The notes beneath the pieces were generated by a model. The model made no database searches. It saw only the letters and a list, made by a program, of their open reading frames with translations, and had not been told where the DNA came from. A DNA stretch of 64,000 nt from Betaproteobacteria bacterium (lineage in GTDB: Bacteria > Pseudomonadota > Gammaproteobacteria > Burkholderiales > Rhodocyclaceae), in the NCBI GenBank assembly GCA_016208415.1, contig JACQYB010000061.1, positions 40,875-104,874 of the forward strand, written 5' to 3'. The number at the start of each line of letters is the position of its first letter. Within the stretch, counting starts at the first letter, position 1. Positions 20,079-23,242 of this stretch are shown here, piece by piece. A program made the position numbers and the translations under genes.

Positions 20079-20471
20079 TCAGCGCTTGGAGAACTGCTTG
20101 CGCCGCCGCGCCTTGTGCAGGCCGACCTTCTTGCGCTCAACCTCACGGGCATCCCGAGTCACCCATCCCGCCTTGCGCAACACCTGCTTGAGCGTCGAAT
20201 CATACTCCACCAGCGCCCGCGTGATGCCGTGACGCACCGCGCCTGCCTGGCCGGACTCTCCACCGCCGCAGACATTCACCAGGATATCGAAGGTGTTCAG
20301 ATGGCTGGTCAGCGCCAGCGGCTGACGCACGATCATCCGCCCCGTCTCGCGGGTGAAGAATTCATCAACGGGCTTGCCGTTGACCACGATGCCGCCGCTA
20401 CCGGGTCTGAGGAAAACCCGCGCCACCGCCGTCTTGCGACGGCCCGTTCCGTAGTTGGATGTCACAGCCAT
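20079..20471 (-). CDS. rpsI: 30S ribosomal protein S9
   Basis: 130 residues: [20 protein letters not shown] at the start and the basic tail [17 protein letters not shown] that reaches the P site. 8 bp downstream of rplM, same operon. Confidence 0.98.
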
Positions 20472-20479
20472 GGTCGATC

Positions 20480-20908
20480 TCAGATTTCCAGCGTTTTGGG
20501 TTGTTGCGCAACGTGCGGGTGCTCGGTGCCAGCATACACCTTCAGCTTCTTCAGCATGGCGTAGCCCAGCGGGCCCTTCGGCAGCATGCCCTTCACCGCA
20601 TTCTCCAGCACACGGCGGGGGAAGCGCTGTTGCAGCTTCTCGAAGGACGTCTCGAAGATACCGCCAGGATAGCCGCTGTGGCGGTAATACTTCTTGTCGG
20701 CGGCTTTGGCACCGGTGACGCGCAGTTTCTCGGCGTTGACGACGACGATGTAATCGCCGGTATCGACGTGAGGCGTGAATTCAGGTTTGTGCTTGCCGCG
20801 CAGGCGGTGCGCAATCTGGCTGGCCAACCGCCCGAGCACCTTGTCCGTCGCATCCACGACGAACCAGTCCCGTTTTACCTCGTGCGGTTTGGCGGAAAAG
20901 GTCTTCAT
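20480..20908 (-). CDS. rplM: 50S ribosomal protein L13
   Basis: 142 residues starting [20 protein letters not shown], with the L13 signature [20 protein letters not shown]. The start is set at ATG 20908, matching the family; an upstream in-frame extension is ignored. First gene of the rplM-rpsI operon with a strong promoter 48 bp upstream. Confidence 0.98.
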
Positions 20909-20955: not shown

Positions 20956-20984
20956 AGTGTATGCGGCGAGCCGGGTGCTGTCAA
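20956..20984 (-). promoter_or_regulatory. sigma-70 promoter of rplM-rpsI
   Basis: On the minus strand TTGACA (20984-20979), 17-bp spacer, TACACT (20961-20956). Confidence 0.88.
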
Positions 20985-21014: not shown

Positions 21015-21122
21015 AAAAAAAACGCAACTCCGTTGGAGTTGCGTTGAATCCACACCAAAGGAGGAGGGTGGAGGAGACAAACCCTGGAGCGCCCGGGAAG
21101 AGCCGCACAGGCACTCGCTACG
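21015..21122 (-). ncRNA. candidate small RNA with CU-rich anti-Shine-Dalgarno motifs
   Basis: A self-contained transcription unit with no good ORF. The promoter is at 21157-21129 (TTGCAT, 17 bp, GATAAT). The predicted RNA of about 108 nt ends in a strong intrinsic terminator: stem AACGCAACTCC / GGAGTTGCGTT (21021-21045) followed by eight U (plus-strand A 21015-21022). In the middle (about 21059-21082) the RNA reads CUCCUCCACCCUCCUCC, complementary to ribosome-binding sites. This resembles the CCUCCUCCC loops of alphaproteobacterial CcsR/cuckoo RNAs, but homology is not claimed. The start is estimated from the -10 position. Confidence 0.6.
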
Positions 21123-21128
21123 CTTCGC

Positions 21129-21157
21129 ATTATCGCCAAGGAAGTTGTGCAATGCAA
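21129..21157 (-). promoter_or_regulatory. sigma-70 promoter of candidate small RNA
   Basis: Minus strand TTGCAT (21157-21152), 17-bp spacer, GATAAT (21134-21129). No protein-coding start follows before the terminator at 21045-21015. Confidence 0.65.
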
Positions 21158-21422
21158 GGGTTTTTCGTGCAGTGCAGCAACGCTGCCCTTCCATCACGCT
21201 CCTGCATGCGCGAGAACAATTTAACAAAATGTTTTAACTACCTTTTCTTGCCTCATGCCCGCCGCCGACAACCATCGAGTGGCCCGCATCAAAGTAGAAT
21301 ATTGCGCATACAGACGGCCCTGGAAGCGCCTGGTTCGTGCAGCGCACAATCACCCTGACCCCCTTGTGCTGGACCCGCTGATGTAGCATCGCCTCCTACT
21401 TCCGGGAACAGGAGCGCGGGTG

Positions 21423-21839
21423 ATGGAATGCACGGTCAGATGGGGCGAGGGCATGACCTTCATTGCGGAGACCGGCAGCGGCCACCTAGTGGGCATGGAT
21501 GGCGCGCCCGAAGGCGGCGGGCGCAACCTCGCTCCGCGTCCGATGGAACTGGTGCTTGCCGGCGCAGGCGGCTGCACGGGTTATGACGTGGTCTTGATCC
21601 TCAGGCGTGGGCGCCACGCCGTGAGCGGCTGCGAAGTCAGCGTCCAGGCCGAGCGCGCGGAGACCGATCCCAAGGTCTTCACGCGCATCCATTTCCGCTT
21701 TCGCGTACGCGGCAGGAACCTCAAGCGCGAAACGGTGGAGAGGGCAATAGCGCTGTCCGCGGAGAAGTACTGCTCGGCCTCCATCATGCTCGGCAAGACG
21801 GCGCAGATCACCCACGAACTGGAAATGATCGATGATTGA
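21423..21839 (+). CDS. OsmC-family protein
   Basis: 138 residues (ATG 21423; GTG 21420 just before it is also possible; AGGAG upstream). It has the OsmC/YhfA layout: an N-terminal beta region, PMELVLAGAGGCTGYDVVLI with the first conserved Cys, and the second Cys in SAEKYCSASIML. OsmC enzymes use the two cysteines to reduce organic hydroperoxides; the YhfA branch is uncharacterised. This sequence looks nearer the YhfA type (RRGRHAVSGCEVSVQAERAE). Monocistronic. Confidence 0.85.
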   Translation: MECTVRWGEGMTFIAETGSGHLVGMDGAPEGGGRNLAPRPMELVLAGAGGCTGYDVVLILRRGRHAVSGCEVSVQAERAETDPKVFTRIHFRFRVRGRNLKRETVERAIALSAEKYCSASIMLGKTAQITHELEMIDD

Positions 21840-21963: not shown

Positions 21964-22584
21964 TCAGACCCAGTAGGCGGTACTCGTCATCACCCGCGAG
22001 GCCAGTTTCATCGCCCCGCGAACCGGGGCGGGCAGTTCCCGTGCACCCAGGCGCATGGCGGTATCGGCATGGCCGATCTCGTCGATCTTCATCTGCTCGA
22101 CGATCCGGCGCGATTTCCGGTCGGCCTCGGGAAGGCGCCCGAGGTGGTCCAGGAGATGGGCCTCCACCTGGCGCTCCGTCTCCGCCAGGAAGCCCAGGTT
22201 CCAGGCGTCGCCGAAACGCCCCGCCACCACGCCGATGGCCAGCGCGCCGCCGTACCACAGCGGATTGAGCAGGCTCTTGCGCCCGCCCAGTTCCTCGATG
22301 CGCTGCTCGGTCCACGCCAGGTGCTCGGTCTCCTCACGCGAGGCTCGCGCCAGGGCGCGCGTCACCACCGGATCGTCCGACATCAGTGCCTGGCCCTGGT
22401 AGAGGGCCTGGGCGCAGATCTCGCCGACGTGGTTCACCCGCATCAGCGCTGCCGCGTGGCCCCGCTCGGCGTCGGACAGCGGGACTTCGGGCAGCTCCTC
22501 GCCCGGCACGGGCCGCACCGTTGCCGCCGGGGCAAAGACAGTGCGCAGCGCCCTGTCGAATTCAATGATCAGTCGGTCGAACAT
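21964..22584 (-). CDS. coq7: demethoxyubiquinone hydroxylase Coq7
   Basis: 206 residues from ATG 22584. Carboxylate-bridged diiron hydroxylase of ubiquinone synthesis. Iron ligands are visible as E in [19 protein letters not shown] (ExxH), and the second E...ExxH pair near the C-terminus (EIGHAD). It replaces UbiF, as in many betaproteobacteria. Together with ispB in the same window it belongs to ubiquinone supply. Confidence 0.94.
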
Positions 22585-22681
22585 TTCGGGAATCCTTCGA
22601 TTCCAATCACGATGGCGGCGCAAGAAGCGGGCACGCACCGCCGGGGTTGCCACGGGAGCGTTTCGTGACGCCCCCGGGCGC

Positions 22682-23242
22682 TCATCGCGGTGCTGCGCGC
22701 CGCAAGCTCTCGAGCGCATCCTCGCGCTTCGTCACCACGATGCCATCAGGACAGAAAACCTCCTGCATCAGGGCCGCGTGGTGACGATTGAGATCGCTGT
22801 TGTAGACCCGGGTCCACTTGTCGGAGCGCGCCTTGGCCCAGCTTCCGTCCGTGCGCCCGAAGGCGTAACGCCGCAACTCCCGCGTGGCGCAACGCAGCCC
22901 CTCGTAGCTGACGTTCTTCGCGCCGGCCTCCGTGCGTACCACGAGGGTATAACGCACCACGCCGTCGGAGCCCAGGTCCACGGACGCGGGTTCGATGAAA
23001 AAACGGTTGCGGGTCAGGCTGCCGACGTAGAACTCGGCGAGCTTGTCGTCACCAGGCACCGGCGGCAGGGTCGGCACGACTTCTTCCCACGGCTTGTCGT
23101 CGAAATCCAGATGGCGGCCGATCCTGGGCATGGGGTCGAAGCCCTCGAACTCCGCCGCCCCGACCGTGCCCCATATCCCCAGCCACACCCCGGCTGCCAA
23201 TACCACCAGACAGCGATGGCCGAGGCCACGGCGGGCGCGCAT
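22682..23242 (-). CDS. CNP1-like family exported protein
   Basis: 186 residues. The signal peptide (residues 1-29) ends VGAAEFEG. The body matches the CNP1-like family (PDDKPWxE-type [60 protein letters not shown]), an uncharacterised betaproteobacterial periplasmic family. It abuts the DUF3501 gene, sharing one base, so they may be co-transcribed. Confidence 0.85.

Follow-up and report, generated by a model that had tools for sequence, protein, structure and literature searches.

A conserved RF02278 small RNA at the rplM locus and its probable repression by PhaR

The 64,000-nucleotide stretch of Rhodocyclaceae DNA analysed here (the window) encodes on its minus strand a genuine, conserved small RNA (sRNA), the representative at the rplM locus of a known and already catalogued family, RF02278 (Betaproteobacteria toxic sRNA). 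The explanation that best accounts for the observations, and which we consider likely as a whole, is that this RNA blocks Shine–Dalgarno (SD) sequences and is repressed by PhaR. Whereas the RNA itself is known, the operator that it shares with phasin genes is new relative to the accessible literature. The features on which the argument draws are the following, in window coordinates.

21165–21179, minus strand: PhaR-type operator A, TGC-TGC-ACT-GCA-CGA, 10 nt before the −35 element (sequence match)
21145–21159, minus strand: second site, TGC-ATT-GCA, overlapping the −35 element (sequence match)
21152–21157, minus strand: −35 element TTGCAT, 17 nt before the −10 element (promoter conserved)
21129–21134, minus strand: −10 element GATAAT (promoter conserved)
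21015–21122, minus strand: predicted primary transcript of the RF02278 sRNA, about 108 nt (from promoter spacing and terminator; start estimated)
21015–21079, minus strand: 65-nt core, full RF02278 match (61.6 bits, model positions 1–64; z −5.57)
21070–21077, minus strand: CU site 1, UCUCCUCC, anti-SD, mostly single-stranded in the predicted fold
21049–21072, minus strand: hairpin 1 of the predicted fold, with loop 21065–21057, UCCUCCUUU, as CU site 2
21021–21045, minus strand: terminator hairpin with covarying stem, then U (T run to 21015)
20956–20984, minus strand: promoter of rplM itself, TTGACA-17-TACACT, past the terminator of the sRNA
20480–20908, minus strand: rplM, ribosomal protein L13 (PF00572; start codon predicted)
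20079–20471, minus strand: rpsI, ribosomal protein S9 (PF00380)
21420–21839, plus strand: OsmC-family gene, divergent neighbour, conserved in synteny (PF02566)
21964–22719, minus strand: coq7 (PF03232), also a neighbour of S17 in Bordetella pertussis (PMC11722255)

A cmscan search matched positions 21079–21015 to the whole of RF02278 (model positions 1–64 of 64) at 61.6 bits, against a gathering cut-off of 50 bits. The initial annotation had called the RNA an orphan; that claim falls with this match and with a locus that fits the published S17 and ncS27. It had also given no strand for the sRNA features at 21015–21157, all of which lie on the minus strand. The published members comprise four double-hairpin RNAs of Burkholderia cenocepacia, ncS03, ncS05, ncS27 and ncS62 (PMC4603805, PMC5688073), four of Herbaspirillum seropedicae, Hsnc059, Hsnc063, Hsnc086 and Hsnc107 (PMC7011215), and S17 of B. 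pertussis (PMC11722255). Like them, the RNA of the window has two hairpins and two CU sites, the second hairpin being a terminator with a U run and the CU stretches being unpaired; in contrast to the four copies each of B. cenocepacia and H. seropedicae, only one copy was found in this genome. Three other genomes (G006, G043 and G610) hold eight or nine dispersed copies each. Terminator-like sites are not significant by themselves (2 found, 1.9 expected); the sRNA exceeds chance because its core folds at −24.0 kcal/mol with a z-score of −5.57, the Rfam E value is 4.5e-12 on 501 bases, a 33-nt core recurs exactly in at least 120 contigs, and the terminator stem covaries.

The promoter had been described as a consensus promoter with 17-bp spacing. 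The 17-nt spacer stands, and a promoter of the form CTTGnnn-N17-nAnAAT lies ahead of nearly all of about 100 orthologues, but TTGCAT-17-GATAAT (21157–21129) agrees with the consensus at only 8 of 12 positions, its −35 element in TTG only, and it was not listed by a consensus promoter scan of the window. The transcript length of about 108 nt agrees with that first proposed and takes as its ends a start about 7 nt past the −10 element (21122) and a 3′ end at 21015; mechanical open reading frames span the region but continue through the terminator. The terminator has an 11-pair stem (AACGCAACTCC/GGAGTTGCGTT) and a 3-nt loop. The 11-bp stem and the eight U reported for it hold singly but not jointly, as the two outer A–U pairs consume two of the eight T, which leaves either 11 pairs and six U or nine pairs and eight U. 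The central CU stretch with repeated anti-SD motifs, TCTCCTCCACCCTCCTCC, is present as first reported and holds both CU sites. Across 36 Burkholderiales copies these sites are nearly invariant, and 9 of 14 pairs, mostly in the terminator stem, change on both sides with pairing kept, so that CU stretch and terminator alike are conserved in relatives.

The identical 33-nt core is found mainly in Rhodocyclales, and also in Herbaspirillum, Noviherbaspirillum and Limnobacter. The gene order coq7–osmC–sRNA–rplM–rpsI holds in the window and in most core-bearing contigs with enough flanking DNA, which places coq7 on one side and rplM on the other, the position expected of an S17/ncS27 orthologue, in the window and most relatives. 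S17 adjoins coq7 in B. pertussis (PMC11722255), while ncS27 lies between BCAL3348a and BCAL3349 (PMC4603805) and, like the sRNA described here, adjoins a gene listed as encoding a ribosomal protein, BCAL3348 (PMC5688073). Given these neighbours and the gene order of the window, Bordetella S17 and Burkholderia ncS27/bdhR1 probably occupy the same ancestral locus as this sRNA and are probably its counterparts by position. A literature search for an sRNA upstream of rplM found none, and the accessible part of the S17 report does not describe rplM and osmC as neighbours (PMC11722255).

S17 resembles the sRNA further in its sigma-A promoter with −35 TTGCAT and a 17-nt spacer, its CU Sites 1 and 2 and its terminator with a U run; it differs in a long form of 190 nt, compared with the predicted 108 nt or so, and in being Bvg-linked (PMC11722255). 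RNAs of the family are known to be expressed. S17 is trimmed by RNase E, depends on Hfq and represses BP2158 via Site 1, as compensatory mutations established (PMC11722255), and by analogy with its 67-nt form S17S, the 65-nt core of our sRNA is probably a processed form. Overexpression of ncS27 slows growth and its antisense has the reverse effect (PMC5688073); S17 overexpressed in E. coli is not toxic (PMC11722255), so the family label "toxic" may not apply to the present copy. Cells in glucose medium contain more of the double-hairpin RNAs than starved cells do (PMC5688073).

PhaR probably represses the RF02278 sRNA through a TGC-N3-GCA operator, since this motif is common to phasin promoters and fits the operator footprinted for PhaR/PhbF. 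The footprint of H. seropedicae PhbF (PhaR) covers TG[N]TGC[N]3GCAA, and the protein acts as a repressor of phaP1 (PMC3206438); operator A fits this motif except at its last base, and both operators of the window are imperfect palindromes. Reading the upstream regions of relatives revealed a palindrome, TTGTGC-NNN-GCACAA, ahead of the −35 element. Within two mismatches it is found in 71 of 99 distinct rplM-locus copies, whereas shuffles give a rate of 0.45%; in 65 of the 99 its end lies 10 nt before the −35 element. The shorter TGC-N3-GCA is present in 75 of these 99 copies (shuffles 2.6) and in 33 of 43 other Burkholderiales copies (shuffles 1.3), and among motifs of this type the enrichment is specific to the 3-nt spacer; in many copies away from rplM, the motif overlaps the −35 element as TGTTGC-NNN-GCA. 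The gene phaR is encoded in this genome and in 52 of 61 relatives. Within this genome, TGTGC-N3-GCACA with one mismatch allowed gave 66 matches versus 54 for controls, too small a difference to be informative.

The same motif marks phasin genes. TGC-N3-GCA lies ahead of 26 of 30 of them across the order, usually twice (shuffles 0.9) and often in the same layout relative to the −35 element as at the sRNA, and the phasin promoter of this genome (locus L236) has the same arrangement as its sRNA promoter. Of 17 loci with the exact TTGTGC-N3-GCACAA in relatives, 7 have it ahead of a phasin, and it precedes the sRNA once; by eye, two further occurrences stand ahead of a PHA synthase-like gene (L265) and an rpoB-like start (L255). 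It is unlikely, in our view, that, with the same RF02278 sRNA and SD-blocking mechanism, the palindrome serves as the binding site of some regulator different from PhaR or lacks a function at this promoter. Such a reading can draw on the 12 of 43 high-scoring copies in PhaR-positive genomes that lack the exact TGC-N3-GCA and on the one motif among the only three copies from PhaR-negative genomes; against it stand the recurrence of the motif, often in the same layout, at phasin genes, its fit to the footprinted PhbF motif and its absence from the PhaR-negative genome G045.

Sinorhizobium meliloti offers a precedent for PhaR control of an sRNA, MmgR (PMC12542648, PMC8401924), whose repression by PhaR (AniA) involves a palindrome (PMC12542648). 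The regulatory logic is that proposed here, although MmgR comes from another class, is another gene and represses phasins. Open-access texts yielded no report that connects RF02278 with PhaR.

Six sub-threshold RF02278-like matches lie within phasin 3′ UTRs of six genomes. At L320, L332, L333, L349, L352 and L353, and probably at G284:C1:2688942-2689018, a hairpin-terminator unit sits in the phasin 3′ UTR, some 20–100 nt past the stop codon, most with TCTCCTCCTCC. These units are candidate 3′-UTR-derived sRNAs of the PHB regulon. The phasin 3′ UTR of the present genome holds no RF02278-like unit, and CU motifs are not a general feature of phasin 3′ UTRs, being present at 4 of 30 phasins and resembling a genuine element in no more than two of these.

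RF02278 has been described as exclusive to betaproteobacteria (PMC7011215), a range contradicted by homologues linked to rplM in other parts of the GTDB class Gammaproteobacteria. Sub-threshold RF02278 matches occur in other orders of this class; in 54 of 81 cases, and in 35 of 41 at 35 bits or above, rplM is the next gene downstream and has the same orientation; we estimate the rate of chance adjacency to rplM at well under 1%. The matches have CTCCTCCATCCTCCTTTGGTGG and a terminator in common, and no other Rfam family matched them well. RNAalifold recovered the terminator from their alignment but not hairpin 1, perhaps owing to misalignment. The PhaR motif is present in 13 of 80, and outside the class a phylum sample of 299 genomes gave four weak matches only. 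Judged by sequence, these putative homologues extend the family beyond what the accessible literature describes. Upstream of the gammaproteobacterial copies (L153–L159, L160–L233) lies a common promoter-like block in which TTGACA is followed by AATATTAGAA, often with CTGATT, unlike the betaproteobacterial promoter. Xanthomonas sX13, considered as a gammaproteobacterial version, adjoins polA rather than rplM (PMC3771888).

This close attachment to rplM, just upstream of which the element lies in nearly all Rhodocyclaceae loci examined as well as in those 54 gammaproteobacterial cases, is what one would expect of a mainly cis-acting leader or attenuator of the rplM–rpsI operon whose conditional terminator governs ribosomal protein synthesis. 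We nevertheless consider such a role very improbable, because in 88 of 99 relatives TTGACA is the best −35 element of a separate rplM promoter past the sRNA terminator, and because identical cores are also found away from rplM, with up to nine copies per genome; moreover, S17 acts in trans (PMC11722255). The earlier view of an independent sRNA beside rplM was right.

A CcsR/cuckoo-type stress RNA, arisen independently or transferred from alphaproteobacteria, is scarcely credible: repeated CU-rich anti-SD motifs outside the stems of the predicted fold, as in Rhodobacter CcsR, make the resemblance drawn in the initial annotation a functional analogy and no more; the RNA is a full RF02278 match, present as a single copy behind a sigma-70 promoter with a TGC-N3-GCA operator, and no CcsR-like family appeared among the cmscan matches to E = 1. 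CcsR promoters depend on a stress sigma factor and CcsR copies stand in tandem beside a DUF1127 gene (ccaF1), none of which is seen at this locus, where the neighbours encode L13, S9, OsmC and COQ7. Membership of NmsRB (RF02877) was rejected as well, its match at 21016–21099 on the minus strand scoring 30.8 bits where the cut-off is 52. Neisseria NmsRA and NmsRB share with the sRNA two anti-SD stretches, one of them in a loop, and repress central metabolism genes; they differ in their dsbB–lrp locus and as tandem siblings. The structural likeness of NmsR and double-hairpin RNAs has been noted (PMC5688073), and the sub-cut-off match hints at a possible distant relationship between NmsR and RF02278 RNAs.

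Targets in this genome were sought by sequence pattern. Close before ATG, AGGAGGAG occurs at 32 sites, compared with 7 for reversed-pattern controls. The genes behind these sites include those for periplasmic solute-binding proteins of the ABC (PF13458), TRAP (PF03480) and NMT1-like (PF16868) types and for an AMP-binding (acyl-CoA ligase-like) enzyme; the predicted targets resemble the transporter-rich target list of S17, although any strong SD sequence fits AGGAGGAG, which makes the list weak evidence. Hfq is encoded in the genome.

For the RF02278 sRNA under PhaR control, we envision the following course. Transcription from the sigma-70 promoter would yield an RNA of about 108 nt, which processing probably shortens to the 65-nt core with its double hairpin. 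Together with Hfq, the two CU sites would pair with the purine-rich SD regions of many mRNAs and block ribosome binding, silencing mainly uptake and catabolic genes. PhaR (PhbF) would probably repress the promoter through the operator upstream of the −35 element and the second one overlapping it. When PHB granules sequester PhaR, the sRNA would be made together with phasins, and further carbon uptake would be damped. For the family at large we lean, with rather less assurance, towards RF02278 sRNAs forming the RNA branch of the PhaR regulon: accumulation of PHB would remove PhaR, phasins and sRNAs would be switched on (in some genomes also from a phasin 3′ UTR), and carbon-uptake mRNAs would be switched off through their covered SD sequences. 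The rplM-locus copy would then be older than PhaR control, because it also lies upstream of rplM in other gammaproteobacterial orders, largely without the operator.

What drives the accumulation of double-hairpin RNAs has been stated to be unknown (PMC5688073), and an unidentified repressor of S17 has been postulated (PMC11722255). With a PhaR operator at RF02278 promoters, both questions can be put to a direct test, and it is this operator and the rplM-linked gammaproteobacterial homologues that are worth testing. If true, PhaR control would tie a global brake on translation to the storage of carbon.
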